Below, piece by piece: positions 49,921-63,521 of a DNA stretch of 64,000 nucleotides; positions within the stretch are counted from its first letter, which is position 1; each line of letters starts with the position of its first letter. Position numbers and translations under genes: made by a program. The stretch spans positions 62,001 to 126,000 of IMG/VR virus record IMGVR_UViG_3300040801_001224. The stretch is one strand, 5' to 3'. The notes beneath the pieces are model-generated. The model made no database searches, was not told where the DNA came from, and was given only the letters and a program-made list of their open reading frames with translations. The stretch is from a virus.

Positions 49921-50055
49921 ATGTTGTATAAGAGTGATTATGTTTCTGAAGAAGAACGTAAAGATATTGAAAAAGCGTACAGTAGCAAAAAACAGAAACG
50001 TAAGTTACAAAATACAATACCTGTAAAAGGAAATGACAGAAGAAGTCAGAATTAA
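49921..50055 (+). CDS. Small basic protein preceding GGDEF-EAL
   Basis: This encodes 44 residues (MLYKSDYVSEEERKDIEK..., then KKQKRKLQ) with an ideal AAGGAGG. It overlaps the GGDEF-EAL start by 23 bases, so it may couple translation. The family is unknown. Its strong RBS and early promoter suggest a real product. Confidence 0.6.
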   Translation: MLYKSDYVSEEERKDIEKAYSSKKQKRKLQNTIPVKGNDRRSQN

Positions 50056-52009
50056 TTTTTATAAGATTGCTCTTGTATACTGGGTAGTGTTTGCTCTATT
50101 TGAGCTTCTGATGCACAGCATTTATATGAGTGGAGCAGGCGCTTATAGCAAAGTTGCCATCGTCGAAGCGATTTTATTTATATCTGGCATTGTGCTAACA
50201 ATACTTGCCAAAAATTCTCTCAAAGACGAAAGCAAAAAGATATATGATGAGCAGTATGAGAGAAAGATCAGGGATCTAGCATCACGTTCACCAACAATGG
50301 GAAGTGACGAATATTTCTCAGTCCTAACAAAAAACATTATTGATGCTGTTGGCTGTGATTATGTTGTTATTGGACAAATAAATTATACTGATAATACTAG
50401 TAAACCATACATAACAACTAAGTCAGCTCGTGGTAGAAATAGAGAGTATCTCCAAACTGAAGTATTATTAAAGACGAGCAACTGTCAAGTAACTGTTCAG
50501 GACATTGAAGATGCTGACCTATCTAGAATATTTAAGGGCAAAAAAGGCAGACACATAAACATGCCACTAGTGTCTAGTGATAACGATATCCATGGTATCC
50601 TGTCTTGTATTTGGATCGGCCCTGATCATCCGCCCAAAACTGCCAAAAACGTACTCAAAATATTTTCGACACAGTGTCAGTCAGAACTTGAGCGATTACT
50701 TACTGAAGAAAAACTTAAATATCAGGCAACTCACGATGAGTTAACTGGCCTACCAAATCGAAACTTTGTAATGGAAAAGTTAAAAGGTATAGTTACTAAA
50801 TACAATTCGGGTGTCATAACTAATAAAACATATAACGTTTATTTTATTGACCTGGATGATTTTAAAGAAGTTAATGACGAATTTGGGCATGACGCTGGCG
50901 ACCAGTTATTAGTGGAGATATCAAGAAGATTGGAGTCATGTGTGAGGGAAGAAGACACGGTGGCAAGACTAGGAGGCGATGAGTTTGTTATTGTTGAAGC
51001 AGGATCAACGAATGTTTCTTCAATTTCGCTATCAGATAGAATTATCAATAAATTACAGCAAGCCGTAAATCTTCATGACAACGTTTCTGTTACCGTGACT
51101 GCTTCAGTCGGGCATTTATGTATTCCTGAAGATTCACAAGATGTGACTGAAATATTCAAGTATGCTGACTTTGCCATGTATTACGCTAAATCACTGGGTA
51201 AGAATGTTGGTGTTAAATTTACTCAAGAACTATTCCGTGATTGTCAGCAAGAAAAAGTTATTGAAGGAAAGCTCATTAGTGCCATTGAGAATAAAGAAAT
51301 TGACATGGCCATCCAGCCAATTGTTGATCATAATCAAAAGATAGTGAAAGGTGAGGTACTGGCAAGATGGTTCTCAGATGACATTAGTCTAACAATTGAA
51401 GATGTGATTAACATTGCTGAGAGACGTGGCCTTATCGTTGCGTTCAGTAAACACATATTTGAAAAGTCAGCTGAATACTGCTCAGAACTTAAATTCGAAC
51501 ATGGCATTTATGCTAGACTCGCTGTTAACTGCTCGCCACTACTGTTTAAGGATCCAGAGTTTGTGCCATATATTTCCAGTGTGTTTGATAAGTATAACAT
51601 AAGTCCTAAACAAATTACTCTTGAAATTACAGAGTCAGTAGCAAGTAAGCACAAGGAAATATTGCCTACTATTGTCGACTTAAAGAGTAGGGGATTTGAA
51701 CTGGCACTTGACGATTTCGGCAAGGGATATTCATCATTGAGTTTTCTAGAAACCTTGCCAATTGATGTAGTGAAACTTGATAGGGCATTGGTTACAGACG
51801 CAATTGGCAACAAGAAGAAGTCTACATTATTGAAAGCCGTAGCTGAGATTTGTAAGGTGTATGAATACAAGTTGGTTGCCGAGGGAATTGAAACTAAAAA
51901 AGACTTTGAGTTTTTGAAAAAATTGGGGTATGACTGGCTACAAGGATATTACTTTTCTAGACCGGTACCATCAGAAGAATACACAAAGTTATTGACACAG
52001 GAGAAATAA
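50033..52009 (+). CDS. Membrane GGDEF-EAL protein (cyclic-di-GMP synthesis/degradation)
   Basis: This encodes 658 residues. Two membrane helices (about 10-31 and 40-59) are followed by a GAF-like sensor region (about 80-225). The GGDEF domain starts at HDELTGLPNR (234) and has an intact GGDEF active site (314-318) with the inhibitory RxxD site (REED, 305-308) five residues before it. The EAL domain follows from about 405: EVL (441-443) in place of EAL, NCS, EITES, DDFGKGYSSL (560-569), EGIET and QGYYFSRP; the metal-binding and catalytic residues I can check are present. It can be a cyclase, a phosphodiesterase or both. It is transcribed early. Phage genes of this type are rare. Confidence 0.93.
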   Translation: MTEEVRINFYKIALVYWVVFALFELLMHSIYMSGAGAYSKVAIVEAILFISGIVLTILAKNSLKDESKKIYDEQYERKIRDLASRSPTMGSDEYFSVLTKNIIDAVGCDYVVIGQINYTDNTSKPYITTKSARGRNREYLQTEVLLKTSNCQVTVQDIEDADLSRIFKGKKGRHINMPLVSSDNDIHGILSCIWIGPDHPPKTAKNVLKIFSTQCQSELERLLTEEKLKYQATHDELTGLPNRNFVMEKLKGIVTKYNSGVITNKTYNVYFIDLDDFKEVNDEFGHDAGDQLLVEISRRLESCVREEDTVARLGGDEFVIVEAGSTNVSSISLSDRIINKLQQAVNLHDNVSVTVTASVGHLCIPEDSQDVTEIFKYADFAMYYAKSLGKNVGVKFTQELFRDCQQEKVIEGKLISAIENKEIDMAIQPIVDHNQKIVKGEVLARWFSDDISLTIEDVINIAERRGLIVAFSKHIFEKSAEYCSELKFEHGIYARLAVNCSPLLFKDPEFVPYISSVFDKYNISPKQITLEITESVASKHKEILPTIVDLKSRGFELALDDFGKGYSSLSFLETLPIDVVKLDRALVTDAIGNKKKSTLLKAVAEICKVYEYKLVAEGIETKKDFEFLKKLGYDWLQGYYFSRPVPSEEYTKLLTQEK

Positions 52010-52012
52010 AAA

Positions 52013-52378
52013 ATGGAATTTGAAAAGCCGAGTTATACTTATAACGCAACACTTTTGAAAGTTATTGATGGTGATACGATTGATGTAATGATTGATTTGG
52101 GTTGCTACACAAGCGTAAGAAAGCGTCTACGCTTCTTAGAGATTGACACTGAAGAATTGCGTGATCGTGATATTGAACGTAGAGAAGATGCGGCAGAAGC
52201 TAAAGAAAGAGTTACTAACTTATTGGAAAATGCTGATAAAATATATGTTCAAACCGTTATGGATTCAACAGGAAAATATGGGCGTCTATTAGCTTATGTT
52301 TGGTATGAAGATGAGTACGGTGTACAGAATTTAAATACTCAATTGTTGAGGGAAGGCTTCCAGAAGAAACCTAGATAA
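52013..52378 (+). CDS. Staphylococcal-nuclease-like (SNase) protein
   Basis: This encodes 121 residues, nearly all one SNase domain: ATLLKVIDGDTIDV (metal-binding D19, D21), KRLRFLEIDTEELRD, then KYGRLLAYVWY and NLNTQLLREGF. The catalytic Arg/Glu/Arg pattern appears present. No signal peptide is visible, so it works in the cytoplasm, perhaps on host DNA or RNA. It starts four bases after the GGDEF-EAL stop in the same operon. Confidence 0.85.
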   Translation: MEFEKPSYTYNATLLKVIDGDTIDVMIDLGCYTSVRKRLRFLEIDTEELRDRDIERREDAAEAKERVTNLLENADKIYVQTVMDSTGKYGRLLAYVWYEDEYGVQNLNTQLLREGFQKKPR

Positions 52379-55898: not shown

Positions 55899-56693
55899 AT
55901 GTCCAGTTTTCTTGAAATCCGCAATGTTGTGGCTAAAGAAATCGACTTAAACAATTGTGATAAAAAATATGATCACAAATATTTCTTAGCATCAATGTAC
56001 TTTGCCCAGCTAGTCTATTTTCGATGGGAGTTTGTCATCTGTTCATTGAAGTCTTTACCTGGTTATGTTTCTCATGAAATATATGATATAGATGGCGTCC
56101 AAGCATTCATGGTAGAATTTGAGAAAACAGCGTGGGTGTCATTCCGTGGCACTGAAATGAAGATCAACGACTGGAAAACAATCCTTAAATTTTGGCAAAA
56201 CGACTACAATAATACTGAAGCTCATGATGGCTTTGCCAGTGCGTTGAGTAAGATCAAAGATCCCGTACTTCGAAAAATTACACAAATGCGAGTAGCTGGC
56301 AAGAGAATACATTTCGTTGGCCATTCAATGGGTGGCGCTCTAGCTACCCTGTTGGCAATTACCCATAAGCCGGAATCCTTAATTACTTTTGGTTGCCCTA
56401 GAGTACTTAAAGGTGATTACTATAAAGAATACTTTCTTTCATTCCCATTTTTTAGAATGGAAAAGCAATGGGATCCTATCACACACATTCCGTGGGCAAT
56501 GCCATTCATCACAACATATAGACATGTTGGCAAGGCGATTGAAATGCCGGGTGAATTTGCCTTCATAAAAAATCATTTCATCAAATCATATTTAAGAACA
56601 GCATTGAACGAATACTATGCTGAATCAACTGGTATCCCAACATCTTTCGCCAGAGTATCAGCAAGAGATCTAAAGCGTATAAAATCATCTTGA
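55899..56693 (+). CDS. Class 3 lipase-like alpha/beta hydrolase
   Basis: This encodes 264 residues with the class 3 lipase pattern: AWVSFRGTE, NTEAHDGFASAL, HFVGHSMGGALATLLA (nucleophile S143 in GHSMG), ITFGCPRV, an aspartate at 192 (QWDPIT) and the catalytic histidine at 209 (YRHVG). All three catalytic residues seem present. No signal peptide is visible, so it would act in the cytoplasm or at the inner membrane, perhaps on host phospholipids during lysis. Its RBS is hidden in the preceding hairpin in read-through RNA and exposed in late RNA, the same arrangement as T4 lysozyme gene e. Confidence 0.85.
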   Translation: MSSFLEIRNVVAKEIDLNNCDKKYDHKYFLASMYFAQLVYFRWEFVICSLKSLPGYVSHEIYDIDGVQAFMVEFEKTAWVSFRGTEMKINDWKTILKFWQNDYNNTEAHDGFASALSKIKDPVLRKITQMRVAGKRIHFVGHSMGGALATLLAITHKPESLITFGCPRVLKGDYYKEYFLSFPFFRMEKQWDPITHIPWAMPFITTYRHVGKAIEMPGEFAFIKNHFIKSYLRTALNEYYAESTGIPTSFARVSARDLKRIKSS

Positions 56694-56718
56694 CAAAACC
56701 ACTACACTATGTTATAAT
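56690..56718 (+). promoter_or_regulatory. Consensus sigma70 early promoter
   Basis: TTGACA (56690-56695), 17 bases, TATAAT (56713-56718). A leader of about 215 bases precedes the CYTH gene. It contains ACCCTGAGGGT at 56869-56879 and no recognised riboswitch. Confidence 0.85.
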
Positions 56719-56939: not shown

Positions 56940-57413
56940 ATGAGTAAAGAAATCGAACGAAAGTTTTTAGTAAATCAGAAACAATTGCCAGCATTATTTG
57001 ATCCAGACTATATCATCCAGGGATATTTACATTCTGATGAAAACAAATCAATCCGAGTGCGTGTCAACAGTGATGGATATAATGCTAAAGGCACACTGAC
57101 AGTTAAGAGTCGTCGTGTAGGCTTAACCTGTGACGAATATGAATATGAAATCCACCCAGACGATGCTCAAGAAATGCTTGATAATATGTGTGACAAAACA
57201 ATGTGTAAAGAACGCTATTACATCAAGCACGATGATCATATGTGGGAGATTGACGTGTTCCAGGGTGATAGTGAAGGGCTTGTTATTGCTGAAATAGAAC
57301 TGTCTACTGAAGGTGAGAAGTTTCCATTTCCAGACTGGGTTGATGCCGAGATATCAGATGATCCCAAGTATTTGAATGTCAATTTATTGGAAAATCCTTA
57401 TAAAAATTGGTAA
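56940..57413 (+). CDS. CYTH domain protein (triphosphate-processing family)
   Basis: This encodes 157 residues with the ExExK-type signature EIERKF at 4-9, then SIRVRV, LTVKSRR, EYEYEI and IAEIELSTEG. These residues line the triphosphate tunnel of CYTH enzymes (inorganic triphosphatase, thiamine triphosphatase, CyaB-type adenylate cyclase). The product could hydrolyse triphosphates or make a cyclic nucleotide; the sequence does not decide. AAGGAA precedes the start. It stands next to the flagellar genes and after the c-di-GMP enzyme, so a signalling role is possible. Confidence 0.85.
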   Translation: MSKEIERKFLVNQKQLPALFDPDYIIQGYLHSDENKSIRVRVNSDGYNAKGTLTVKSRRVGLTCDEYEYEIHPDDAQEMLDNMCDKTMCKERYYIKHDDHMWEIDVFQGDSEGLVIAEIELSTEGEKFPFPDWVDAEISDDPKYLNVNLLENPYKNW

Positions 57414-57498: not shown

Positions 57499-57506
57499 CA
57501 TAAATA
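57499..57506 (+). promoter_or_regulatory. Late promoter variant (CATAAATA) of the flagellin operon
   Basis: 36 bases before the flagellin ATG. A TATAAT at 57522-57527 lacks a good -35. Confidence 0.5.
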
Positions 57507-57542: not shown

Positions 57543-58358
57543 ATGATTACTATTAATTCAAACACATTGGCTTCATCTATTAGTAATAACTTTAATAGTA
57601 TTAGCAAGCGCATCGATGATGTTTCACGTTCAATTGCGTCAGGCAAGAGAATTAACTCAGCTAAGGATGACCCTGCTGGCTTATTCCAAGCAAACGCATT
57701 ACGCACACAGACGAGCTCATACAACGTAGTTCGCAATAACTTAACATTTGGTACTTCACTATTGGAAACAGCAAGTTCAGCATTAAGCACAGTCGTAAAT
57801 GACTTGGGCAAGATGCGTGACCTAGCTGTCCAGGCGGCAAGTGGCACACTTTCAACAGAAGGTCGTGCGGCACTACAGGCAACATTTGCAGAATACCAGT
57901 CACAGATTGATGATACGGTATCTAACGCATCAGTATTCGGCCAGAACTTAGTTTCGGCGGCCGCGGCAGATGTTGATATCCAGTCAGGCATCAACGCAGG
58001 TCAGACAACTACCGTTACAGCGGCGGCTTCAGATGCTACGACATTGGGTGTTAATGCGTTAGACTTAACTTCAGAAGCAAATGCGTCAGCGGCTATCACA
58101 GCCATTGATACTGCTATTGCTACGGCCGGTACTAACCAGTCTACGTTTGGTGCCCAGTTAAATCGCATTGAATCAATTGACGCAAATGTGGCTAACATTG
58201 TTGAAAATTTAGAATCAGCACGTTCACGTATTGAGGATGCTGATGTAGCACAGCTAACAACAGACCTAGCACAGTTGCAGGTTCAACAGCAGTTAGCGTC
58301 AGCAATGTTAGGAATTGCTAACCAGTTACCACAGAGCTTCTTAACACTATTACGTTAA
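57543..58358 (+). CDS. fliC: Flagellin (complete, D0/D1-type)
   Basis: This encodes 271 residues beginning MITINSNTLASSISNNFNS. The N-terminal D0/D1 domain is canonical: SGKRINSAKDDPAGL (residues about 33-47), NVVRNNLTFGTSLLETA. The C-terminal half ends in LNRIESIDANVANIVENLES, ARSRIEDADVAQ and IANQLPQSFLTLLR, the classic flagellin C-terminal helix. The central region is short and Ala/Thr-rich, so no large D2/D3 domain is present. All segments needed for export by the flagellar type III system and for filament assembly look intact. A GGAGAAAGGA RBS and a late-type promoter suggest abundant, late expression. FlaG and FliS genes follow. Confidence 0.93.
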   Translation: MITINSNTLASSISNNFNSISKRIDDVSRSIASGKRINSAKDDPAGLFQANALRTQTSSYNVVRNNLTFGTSLLETASSALSTVVNDLGKMRDLAVQAASGTLSTEGRAALQATFAEYQSQIDDTVSNASVFGQNLVSAAAADVDIQSGINAGQTTTVTAAASDATTLGVNALDLTSEANASAAITAIDTAIATAGTNQSTFGAQLNRIESIDANVANIVENLESARSRIEDADVAQLTTDLAQLQVQQQLASAMLGIANQLPQSFLTLLR

Positions 58359-58371
58359 AGGGTGAATAACA

Positions 58372-58722
58372 ATGGACGTTGGCCAAGTTAAATCACAGTA
58401 TAGCTTAGTAGCAGGGAATAAAGGAGACATCAAACCTCCCGAGCCTCCTAAAGGAACTGCTACTGAACCGCTCGTTCGTGATTACAGCATTGAAGAGATG
58501 CAGGATTTGGCTCGGGCGGCAAATGCTTCTATGCCCAATAGTAGTATTCGTTTTAAGATTGATGAACAAGGCGAGCCGCCTATCATTGTCATTATTGATC
58601 CAGAAACAGATGAAATAGTAAGACAGATACCTCCAGAAGAGATTCAAAATATCAGAGATATGGTTGAGTCTCTTCAAAATGGAGAAAGTTACATAACTAA
58701 TTTTATAGATAGGTACGCATAA
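58372..58722 (+). CDS. flaG: FlaG family protein
   Basis: This encodes 116 residues. The C-terminal half has the FlaG pattern: SIRFKIDEQGEPPIIVIIDP, then ETDEIVRQIPPEEI (residues 58-92). The N-terminal 35 residues are a flexible, proline-rich segment (KPPEPPKGTATEP). FlaG is encoded beside flagellin in many bacteria and influences filament length. Its start is 14 bases after flagellin and its last base is shared with the next ATG. Confidence 0.88.
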   Translation: MDVGQVKSQYSLVAGNKGDIKPPEPPKGTATEPLVRDYSIEEMQDLARAANASMPNSSIRFKIDEQGEPPIIVIIDPETDEIVRQIPPEEIQNIRDMVESLQNGESYITNFIDRYA

Positions 58723-59072
58723 TGAATACAGGCATAGATGCTTATAAAAAAGTTTCAGTAGAAACATCCACTCCGGAAGATCTTTCAATGAAGGTCATTA
58801 ACAGTATCCTTTCATACATTAAGGAAGCACAACTCCTGCCATTGGAGACACCAAAGTACAAAGAGTGTTTACTTAATGCTCAGATGCTTTGTGTGGGCGC
58901 CATATTTAGTCTATCAGGCAATGAGCGCACAAAGGCTAATGTTGTACTGACTAACGTATTTGACAGTGTTCAAAGTGAACTATTGCTTGTTTTAAAAGAT
59001 GGTACCGGTGACCTAAACCAATGTAAGCGTCTACTAAGCCTATTAACTGAAAAGCCAGAATACATAGGATAG
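58722..59072 (+). CDS. fliS: FliS-like flagellin chaperone
   Basis: This encodes 116 residues. The N-terminus GIDAYKKVSVETSTPEDL is the FliS signature (AY..v.v.T.sPe.L). The rest is a four-helix bundle of the expected length (FliS is about 125 residues). FliS binds the C-terminal helix of flagellin in the cytoplasm and delivers it for export. It is coupled to FlaG (TAATG-type overlap). The combination with flagellin and FlaG makes the assignment strong, although the middle helices are diverged. Confidence 0.85.
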   Translation: MNTGIDAYKKVSVETSTPEDLSMKVINSILSYIKEAQLLPLETPKYKECLLNAQMLCVGAIFSLSGNERTKANVVLTNVFDSVQSELLLVLKDGTGDLNQCKRLLSLLTEKPEYIG

Positions 59073-59073
59073 T

Positions 59074-59081
59074 GATAAATA
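59074..59081 (+). promoter_or_regulatory. Late promoter (GATAAATA)
   Basis: 33 bases before the exported coiled-coil gene at 59114. Confidence 0.65.
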
Positions 59082-59113: not shown

Positions 59114-59755
59114 ATGAAATATATATTACTTGCGATTACACTTGCCTTCACACTTATCACACAAGCAAGTGATGAAAAATCCGTTAATCAAATACCACAA
59201 GCGGCGACTAAGTCACTTGATAGGCTACTTAAATCACAAGACAACAGCGCCGAAGCTCGCTTAAAGAGACAAGTCATCCAGCTACAGAATGAACTTCGCT
59301 CAGCCAATCGAGCTTATTACGCATTGTCTAAAGAAAACGAAGATCTTAGAATTCAACTTGAAGCATCACAGCAATCTGAAGCATATGCCGAACCTGAAGA
59401 AGAATTATATACAGCTGAGCAAGTTGAAGAACTAGTCCAGAACGCACAGAACGAAGTGTGGTCAGACAGCATGATCTACAGAATTGCTGAGCGTGAATAC
59501 TTACTGGCTCAAGACAATATCGTTCATGGAAAATTTATAGTAGAAGATATGTTAGCTTCAGATTATGCTAACCTACGCTCAGTATATGGCGAAGATTTTG
59601 ATTTTAGCTCTTATGTAGGTAAAGCAGTTGAAGAGTACAGAACTTACTTTGAAGCCAGATTCCCGCGTGGTGAAGAGTTACATAAAGCAACCACTGAAAT
59701 ATTATCAGCAATGTGTACAGTGGGTCCACAAGAACCAGAATTAGGAATTGAATAA
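59114..59755 (+). CDS. Exported coiled-coil protein
   Basis: This encodes 213 residues from MKYILLAITLAFTLITQA, a clear signal peptide with cleavage probably after QAS or nearby; a longer frame from 59072 would bury it. GGAG lies upstream of 59114. A coiled coil (ARLKRQVIQLQNELRSANRA) runs from about 50 to 95, followed by a helical acidic domain. It is exported to the periplasm and follows the flagellar genes. It may link to the envelope or motor; the family is unknown. Confidence 0.6.
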   Translation: MKYILLAITLAFTLITQASDEKSVNQIPQAATKSLDRLLKSQDNSAEARLKRQVIQLQNELRSANRAYYALSKENEDLRIQLEASQQSEAYAEPEEELYTAEQVEELVQNAQNEVWSDSMIYRIAEREYLLAQDNIVHGKFIVEDMLASDYANLRSVYGEDFDFSSYVGKAVEEYRTYFEARFPRGEELHKATTEILSAMCTVGPQEPELGIE

Positions 59756-61905: not shown

Positions 61906-62078
61906 GTGCAATTGAGCAACCTAAACAATTTGTAAAGATGCAGGATGTTGTCCAGACACTAATCGATTCTGTCAATGAGTTGAACGGTGAACTGGAGGAC
62001 ATGAGAGAATTTATAGAAGAAAGTAGCCTTTCGGAAGAATACCGAAAGCATAAGATGGTAAATACCTTAAAGAAATAA
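61902..62078 (+). CDS. Small protein, paralog family member C
   Basis: This encodes 58 residues from ATG at 61902 (MSAIEQPKQFVKMQDVVQTL). The end REFIEESSLSEEYRKHKMV matches A and B. It ends just before the tmRNA gene. Confidence 0.6.
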   Translation: MSAIEQPKQFVKMQDVVQTLIDSVNELNGELEDMREFIEESSLSEEYRKHKMVNTLKK

Positions 62079-62084
62079 GGCGTT

Positions 62085-62421
62085 CGGATAAGGGCTGGTA
62101 TCCCGGAGAACTCACTGGCTGAAGAAGCTATAGACCTCCTTAAGTGCCATTGCGTAAAGCATAAATCAGTTCGCCGTTTTAATTCGATGAAGTAATTTAA
62201 TGATACTGTGGACGCCAGTTCGAATCTGGCCATCTCCACCAAATCTATGGGGATGAATTAGGTTTCGACAGGGTATACTGAGAATTATGGAGAATCAGTC
62301 AATGCTAAAGGCTGTGAGGATTGGGAGTAACACCTTTAATGGTGCTCGGTCGAAGAAGCAAAAAAATAATTGAAAATGATGAAATTTTCGCATTAGCGGC
62401 ATAGACCGTTAACGGGGTTTT
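62085..62421 (+). ncRNA. ssrA: Circularly permuted (two-piece) tmRNA
   Basis: The acceptor half comes first: T arm GCCAG-TTCGAAT-CTGGC (62214-62230), then CATCTCC-A-CCA (62231-62241). After only seven bases the 5' half starts with GGGGATG (62249-62255), which pairs with CATCTCC (seven pairs, one G-U), followed by the tmRNA-typical GGTTTCGACAGGG. The tag frame, aligned on E. coli GCAAAAAAUAGUC-GCA, resumes at GAA (62372) and reads ENDEIFALAA-stop (62372-62404), very close to the E. coli tag. The 5' limit of the acceptor half is approximate. Two-piece tmRNA genes are found in alphaproteobacteria and some cyanobacteria. It rescues stalled ribosomes and tags proteins for degradation. Confidence 0.92.
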
Positions 62422-62458
62422 ACACCGTCTTCCTTGTTATCAAAAGACGGTGTCTTTA
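62422..62458 (+). terminator. Terminator after tmRNA
   Basis: A perfect ten-base stem ACACCGTCTT / AAGACGGTGT (62422-62431, 62444-62453) with a short T-rich tail; overlaps the end of the convergent gene. Confidence 0.7.
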
Positions 62459-63096
62459 TGTATGCTATAGTGTTGGCGTAACCCGTTCACTGACTTTTCT
62501 TCTCCGCAAATAATACAAGAACATTTTATTCTGCTACTATTATTTTTAGAAATTTTTTCTCTGGTAGTTTTGGATAATTTTCTTCCCTTCCCTTGCCCAG
62601 TGCGATCTATGTTTCTTATCTTCGGGTCATGCATTGGGTTGTTGTTTTTTAATCGTTCCGAAGCTTGCCGGCGTTGTTCGTTAGTCCATTCGTACCCTCC
62701 ACCACCTGGTCTAGATACTCCTTTATTTGACTCAGATATTTTTCTTTTGTGTTCTTCAGAAAAAGATCGTCCAGTATTGGCCTGACTTATTGTTTTTTTG
62801 TGTTCGTCAGATATTACCCTCGGTCCACCATCTGTTCCGTTTTCTATAGCAAGATTTGCCCATTCTTTTGATTCTACGATTTGGTTTAGCTTTGAAAAAA
62901 GTGTAGAAAATCTTTTTAGCTTTTCTAAGCTTTTGAATTCCTTATACCACAAGGTATCGATAAATTTGCCGTGTTTCTTGATGTGACGTAACCAGTATTT
63001 GCCCGATCCGGCATATTTAGTCGGCTCATTTTTTGTCTTGCCGAAATATTTGAGCCCGGTTTTCTGGTGCTGTTTTATATATAGATAAATACTCAT
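62440..63096 (-). CDS. GIY-YIG homing endonuclease with NUMOD3 repeats
   Basis: This encodes 218 residues from ATG at 63096 behind TAGGAG; the frame opens to 63138. The N-terminus MSIYLYIKQHQKTGLKYFGK is the GIY-YIG core (Y-L-Y / Y-F-G), then KYAGSGKYW. NUMOD3-type DNA-binding repeats GRSFSEEHKRKISESNKG and GRKLSKTTREKIS follow, and the C-terminus has CIICGEEK, part of a zinc element. It is inserted right behind the tmRNA gene and may home into it. Confidence 0.85.
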   Translation of the reverse strand: MSIYLYIKQHQKTGLKYFGKTKNEPTKYAGSGKYWLRHIKKHGKFIDTLWYKEFKSLEKLKRFSTLFSKLNQIVESKEWANLAIENGTDGGPRVISDEHKKTISQANTGRSFSEEHKRKISESNKGVSRPGGGGYEWTNEQRRQASERLKNNNPMHDPKIRNIDRTGQGKGRKLSKTTREKISKNNSSRIKCSCIICGEEKSVNGLRQHYSIHKDTVF

Positions 63097-63156
63097 GCTG
63101 ATACTCCTATTCAGTATTAGAGTAGTCGGATACGCCAATATCGCGGACTACATTTT

Positions 63157-63206: not shown

Positions 63207-63470
63207 ATGACTGATAAAATTTTTTATATGACCGAAATAGAGCCCCATGGATGGATAGTTACTTCTACAAAAGATGACCTCTTAGAAATAGACTACGAAA
63301 TGTCTAAAGATGGCAGAGGCTTTAGTAACACCCCAGCAGTTGAAGTTCGTCGTAGACCAGGGCATAGCATACCGGATAAATACAAACGGGCATTCTTTGA
63401 ATTAGATATTCTTTATTCTAGGTTTATTTATATTGCAGAAAACTGTGTTCCGTGGTTGGAAAAAGTTTAA
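63207..63470 (+). CDS. Hypothetical protein, possibly leaderless
   Basis: This encodes 87 residues (MTDKIFYMTEIEPHGWIVTS). No RBS precedes the ATG, which coincides with the predicted transcription start. No motif is recognised. Confidence 0.55.
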   Translation: MTDKIFYMTEIEPHGWIVTSTKDDLLEIDYEMSKDGRGFSNTPAVEVRRRPGHSIPDKYKRAFFELDILYSRFIYIAENCVPWLEKV

Positions 63471-63489
63471 CATGCTTTAGCGGGGTTTC

Positions 63490-63521
63490 AAGGGCACCTG
63501 GCAACAGAAGCCCTTTCTTTT
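63490..63521 (+). terminator. Terminator
   Basis: An AAGGGC / GCCCTT stem with a 14-base loop and a T-rich tail, after the early gene. Confidence 0.6.

Follow-up and report, generated by a model that had tools for sequence, protein, structure and literature searches.

What might an apparently lytic bacteriophage gain by carrying genes for a flagellar filament? This question is raised by a 64,000-nucleotide stretch of viral DNA (the window; positions 62,001 to 126,000 of IMG/VR virus record IMGVR_UViG_3300040801_001224), in which a compact cassette encodes a flagellin, a FlaG protein and a FliS-like flagellin export chaperone. Coordinates are positions in the window unless a locus identifier (L followed by a number) is given. 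A reading made from the letters alone, referred to here as the original prediction, had described three contiguous, coupled genes amid T4-like phage genes. All three open reading frames (ORFs) were recovered at the expected positions, with a spacing of 13 nt between flagellin and FlaG and a 1-nt overlap between the FlaG stop and the FliS start (Table 1). The genes form a real and coherent cassette that resides in a phage, and its identity, fold, gene order, phage residence and promoter context are established.

Identity and phage residence of the cassette

The flagellin sequence scores above the gathering cut-off for both Pfam domains, Flagellin_N (1e-25) and Flagellin_C (5e-18); a failure of hidden Markov model searches to find flagellin domains, which the original prediction had named as a refutation, did not occur. 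Its AlphaFold2 (AF2) model, built with 19 homologues (mean predicted local distance difference test score, pLDDT, 84.9), contains the helices and beta strands of D0 and D1 and lacks D2 and D3; the best PDB match in Foldseek is the Shewanella oneidensis FlaA filament subunit (9oxj, template modelling (TM) score 0.83). The full-length protein with intact D0/D1 ends that had been predicted is therefore upheld at the level of the fold, but not at the level of individual residues: among 65 highly conserved flagellin positions 38 are kept and 27 are substituted, whereas at most 12 are changed in any of 64 bacterial flagellins. These changes may mean that the protein has adapted to another assembly partner, or that it has lost normal polymerization. 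The nearest bacterial flagellins are ~40% identical to the phage protein (43% over 241 columns in one alignment; none was found above ~43%), and its branch in the flagellin tree measures 1.8-1.9 changes per column.

The second gene product matches the FlaG family at 2.9e-12, above its cut-off, and keeps the sequence RQIPPEE, part of an RQIP.EE block that is invariant among the FlaG proteins aligned; both observations bear out the predicted identity. The third ORF is taken as FliS by fold and position, and as FliS-like by sequence, because three weak sequence libraries agree with one another, with the predicted fold and with the position of the gene. Its scores lie under the curated thresholds (Pfam, E 0.085 and 13.6 bits against 26.7; NCBIfam TIGR00208, E 0.009 and 16.1 against 53.75), but FliS is the top family in both libraries, the sole two matches at E<=10 in the PDB sequence set are FliS, and the 328-kb genome contains no other FliS candidate at E<=1. 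An AF2 model made from this sequence alone, moderate in confidence (pLDDT 69.6), has FliS proteins as its five best PDB matches in Foldseek, with TM scores of 0.59-0.65 and E values of just 0.03-0.25, which agrees with the FliS-like chaperone originally proposed. A profile made from the FliS proteins of bacterial loci failed to single out the phage protein, and hhalign against 11 FliS sequences returned a probability of 14.6%.

The predicted T4-like setting is equally evident. The virus record comprises 328,096 bp, its ends overlap by 23 bp, as in a complete circularly permuted genome, and 26 tRNA genes are predicted in it. It encodes a portal, rIIA and a gp23-type capsid that is 78.6% identical to the capsid of Pseudomonas phage PA5oct, and its core genes are collinear with those of PA5oct on both sides of the cassette. 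The record is thus probably a complete PA5oct-like jumbo phage, and a lytic lifestyle is likely because no match to the tyrosine integrase family (PF00589) was found in it, a search that did not extend to serine integrases. The cassette fills an accessory position with rIIA on one side and the PA5oct gp292 homologue on the other. When codon preference is corrected for amino-acid content, the flagellin gene ranks 25th and the capsid gene 7th among 319 phage genes, which suggests that the flagellin has long resided in the phage and is strongly expressed; the codon use of FlaG is unlike that of the phage (z -2.2), and that of FliS is average. PA5oct itself has no match to flagellin, FliS, FlaG or EAL, flagellin is absent from all 42 related records searched (eight of them 210-469 kb long), and the related phages searched lack the cassette. 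These and the other reports of missing relatives hold for the collections and sensitivities used, which may leave out records very near this genome.

The source of the genes can be narrowed by comparison with bacteria. The original prediction had proposed a phylogeny against alphaproteobacterial flagellins; with these included, the tree left the phage flagellin unplaced and named no donor, and it is the FlaG relatives, mostly gammaproteobacterial among the nearest, and the gene order that point instead to gamma- or betaproteobacteria. Fifteen bacterial loci, most of them from these two classes, contain the full set of genes; their order is flagellin, FlaG, a stretch of 1.3-2.1 kb in the usual place of FliD, and FliS, and in 14 the flagellin shares its strand with the other filament genes (the exception is L265). 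We infer that the phage infects a polarly flagellated gamma- or betaproteobacterium.

Promoter context and neighbouring genes

Promoter families were derived from the phage genome itself. The early family, TTGAC-N17-19-TATAAT, has 83 copies on one strand and 3 on the other, and CCACT occurs in the spacer of 41 of the 83. The late family, GATAAATA, lies upstream of 70 ORFs (7.6 expected). A full early promoter precedes both the cassette and a gene for a CYTH-domain protein, and no plus-strand terminator was found; the CYTH gene is possibly a member of the same operon. A gap of 129 nt precedes the flagellin gene and contains, 44 nt before that gene, CATAAATA, a one-base variant of the late motif, so a late contribution to expression is possible. 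A sigma-28 promoter was sought by eye upstream of the flagellin gene, and nothing convincing was seen. The late promoter of the next gene marks the end of the cassette, outside which that gene probably lies.

Table 1. Positions of the cassette genes, promoter elements and neighbouring genes in the window.
Feature	Position	Strand	Evidence or remark
Membrane-anchored GGDEF-EAL cyclic di-GMP (c-di-GMP) protein	50033..52009	+	PF00990 2.6e-39; PF00563 2.1e-56
Early promoter upstream of CYTH gene and cassette	56690..56718	+	TTGACA-N17-TATAAT, 12/12; CCACT in spacer
CYTH-domain protein, first recognised gene after early promoter	56940..57413	+	PF01928 1.3e-6
One-base variant of late promoter motif, CATAAATA	57499..57506	+	Motif match
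Flagellin, 271 aa, D0/D1 only	57543..58358	+	PF00669 and PF00700; AF2/Foldseek match to flagellar filaments
FlaG, 116 aa	58372..58722	+	PF03646; RQIPPEE block
FliS-like flagellin export chaperone, 116 aa	58722..59072	+	Weak sequence matches, all FliS; FliS fold
Late promoter of next gene, GATAAATA	59074..59081	+	Motif family
Gene after FliS, signal-peptide-like N terminus	59114..59755	+	No Pfam match; likely true start ATG 59114

The gene for the GGDEF-EAL protein lies 5.5 kb upstream of the cassette, with both modules inside 9 kb. The protein has two hydrophobic N-terminal stretches and all of the motif residues, namely GGDEF, the RxxD inhibitory site and the EAL-domain residues (with EAL written EVL), and its nearest solved structures include an entry named 'Motility regulator' (4rnh). 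Among 20 phage records EAL was found solely in this phage; searches of the phage for CsrA and PilZ detected neither. The GGDEF-EAL protein is a possible partner module of the cassette.

Other features of the region were also recorded. A thermonuclease-like ORF (52013-52378) directly follows the GGDEF-EAL gene, and between rIIA and the cassette is a gene for a class 3 lipase (55899-56693), which has a late promoter motif of its own. Downstream is a permuted transfer-messenger RNA (tmRNA) gene (62140-62495; Rfam RF04321, 95.6 bits; tag ENDEIFALAA) that adjoins a NUMOD3-containing ORF (62440-63138); permuted tmRNAs have precedent in marine phages (PMC9004378). A second alpha_tmRNA match (63392-63518) is weak (40 bits, which is under the gathering score) and possibly due to chance. 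At L015:6270-6347, a tRNA gene within a tRNA cluster has a predicted four-base anticodon, tttg, and may be a frameshift-suppressor tRNA or a misprediction.

Possible roles of the cassette in infection

On balance, we lean towards the view that the cassette is a phage-domesticated, streamlined filament operon that remodels the host filament of the infected cell; its expression, export, assembly and benefit are what we infer. The early phage promoter would drive the cassette, and the phage FliS would hold the phage flagellin unpolymerized and deliver it to FlhA at the host flagellar type III export gate. The host hook, junction proteins and FliD cap would then allow the phage flagellin to polymerize at the growing tip; parts of the host would be needed for a filament because the phage is without FliD (FliD_N was found nowhere in the phage, but was present in all five bacterial genomes searched). 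The phage FlaG would tune the amount exported by opposing FliS at FlhA, and as host gene expression declines the filament would be partly replaced by the divergent phage subunit. In Campylobacter jejuni, FliS brings flagellin to FlhA, where FlaG acts as an antagonist and competitor of FliS (PMC12445086), so flagellin, FlaG and FliS can form one export-control unit. The likely benefit would be control of swimming, of flagellum-dependent superinfection or of both while a long jumbo-phage infection runs its course, perhaps in concert with the GGDEF-EAL protein. Remodelling is strengthened as a reading by the presence of two accessory modules that touch motility within 9 kb. It is also favoured by the identity and fold of the three proteins, by their bacterial gene order, by an early promoter before the cassette and a separate late one after it, by the codon preference of the flagellin and by the precedent of FRphi, in which a phage flagellin replaces that of the host (PMC13418256). 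A more tentative extension is a two-part takeover of motility, in which the cassette proteins, prioritized at the export gate, would rebuild the filament while the c-di-GMP enzyme resets the choice between swimming and sticking, so that motility is kept or lost on the phage's terms.

Several observations weigh against remodelling. The 27 changed positions exceed those of any bacterial flagellin compared, which makes copolymerization with host subunits doubtful. The 129-nt gap before the flagellin gene and the CATAAATA variant within it make the timing of expression uncertain, and the FliS-like protein falls under the curated sequence thresholds. Moreover, the phage genome contains no significant TnpB-type domain and hence no recognizable TldR repressor of host flagellin, unlike the FRphi phages discussed below.

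The alternative that survives best is flagellar arrest, in which the divergent flagellin would poison the filament tip or clog export while FlaG and FliS crowd FlhA, leaving host flagella blocked or shortened; the phage would thereby spare energy, or competing phages would lose flagella as their receptors. We judge arrest unlikely, yet it is a real rival because of the 27 substitutions, and it draws further support from the absence of FliD in the phage and from the role of FlaG in C. jejuni, where it limits filament length (PMC12445086). However, an export chaperone is not something that a poison would obviously need, the model shows a complete D0/D1 fold, and the codon use of the flagellin suggests strong expression. 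That the cassette is passenger DNA, a captured operon without current function whose frames are open by chance, is improbable: its absence from all related phages searched, the atypical codon use of FlaG and the fast evolution of the flagellin would fit this idea, but three open frames and recognizable folds have been kept at ~40% flagellin identity to any bacterium, the flagellin codons match the phage, and other phage lineages keep flagellins too. Still less probable is a structural role outside the flagellum, with the flagellin in the virion or in a separate fibre freed at lysis. The late-like element before the gene, the capsid-like codon bias and the location of flagellins among tail or capsid genes in some other contigs favour such a role, whereas the early promoter context and the FlaG and FliS partners fit flagellar export rather than virion assembly, and a Foldseek comparison of the flagellin model with predicted viral proteins gave no match at E<=0.001. 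Finally, a chimeric assembly with host DNA, which the original prediction had named as a finding that would overturn it, is very improbable even for an uncultivated metagenomic record, given the 23-bp end overlap, the PA5oct-collinear genes on both sides, the phage promoters in and around this part of the genome, the codon fit of the flagellin and its lack of any close bacterial relative.

Comparison with known systems

Single-protein scans of viral contigs with flagellin, rIIA and FlaG returned no relatives, but an alignment-based flagellin scan succeeded and found full-length D0/D1 flagellins in other phage contigs, T4-like and metagenomic. Portal, sheath, capsid, tail or DNA polymerase genes accompany the flagellin in five of six of these loci (L110, L114, L115, L116, L117 and L119): it lies beside a T4-like capsid gene in L117, with portal and sheath genes in L114, with tail or baseplate genes in L110 and L119, and with a DNA polymerase gene in L116; a further contig, L111, carries a terminase gene. 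The flagellins of L110, L114, L115 and L119 form a supported virus-only clade (100/98), and the tree places those of L116 and L111 with bacteria, in each case different ones, so several separate acquisitions by phages are probable; by this phylogeny, at least one lineage has probably kept and diversified its flagellins. Kinship between the flagellin studied here and the main clade of solitary viral flagellins is neither supported nor rejected (p-AU 0.41). FlaG and FliS had no match in the solitary-flagellin records searched, and FlaG had no relatives in viral contigs by the alignment-based scan or in INPHARED. Flagellin matches from tblastn searches of INPHARED were not counted as phage flagellins, as they are unannotated, often short and resemble host DNA, and many IMG/VR flagellin hits (L139-L178), which align at the C terminus alone and for the most part lie near contig ends, were left out as likely borders of prophages.

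If remodelling is correct, it extends from temperate phages, where a lasting lysogen is changed, to an apparently lytic phage, whose gain must fall within one infection. Here an export chaperone and a length regulator are carried alongside the subunit, and the worth of a doomed cell's motility to a virus becomes testable. The original prediction knew of no characterized phage with this triad, and we found none published in the open-licence literature, although phage flagellin alone has precedent in the solitary-flagellin T4-like contigs, where as here a full-length D0/D1 flagellin stands in a phage context, and in FRphi.

Three known systems place the cassette. The bacterial polar-flagellar operon fliC-flaG-fliD-fliS of Pseudomonas and Shewanella has the same gene families in the same order, but in the phage FliD is missing, the genes are tightly packed, and flagellin and FliS have strongly diverged. 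PA5oct (Arenbergviridae) shares a homologous capsid and collinear core genes, a likeness short of a formal family-level phylogeny, and carries rIIB together with an oligopeptidase gene in the interval from rIIA to gp292, where the new phage has the cassette. The closest published case is that of the temperate FRphi phages of Enterobacter, which encode a flagellin, FliCP, that replaces the host flagellin and alters the filament (PMC13418256). Its authors describe it as the first known prophage-encoded flagellin and consider phage resistance unlikely as its main benefit (PMC13418256), and escape from flagellotropic phages should therefore not be assumed for the present cassette. In our scans, two prophage loci (L121:9989-12587 and L136:9989-12807) have a flagellin gene (fliC) followed by a TnpB-like ORF, which by eye looks like the FliCP-TldR arrangement of FRphi. 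Both FRphi and the new phage encode a flagellin with a D0/D1 core, but FRphi, a temperate siphophage, has an RNA-guided repressor (TldR), and its flagellin bears large outer domains, whereas the new phage is a T4-like jumbo phage with a minimal D0/D1 flagellin accompanied by FlaG and FliS.
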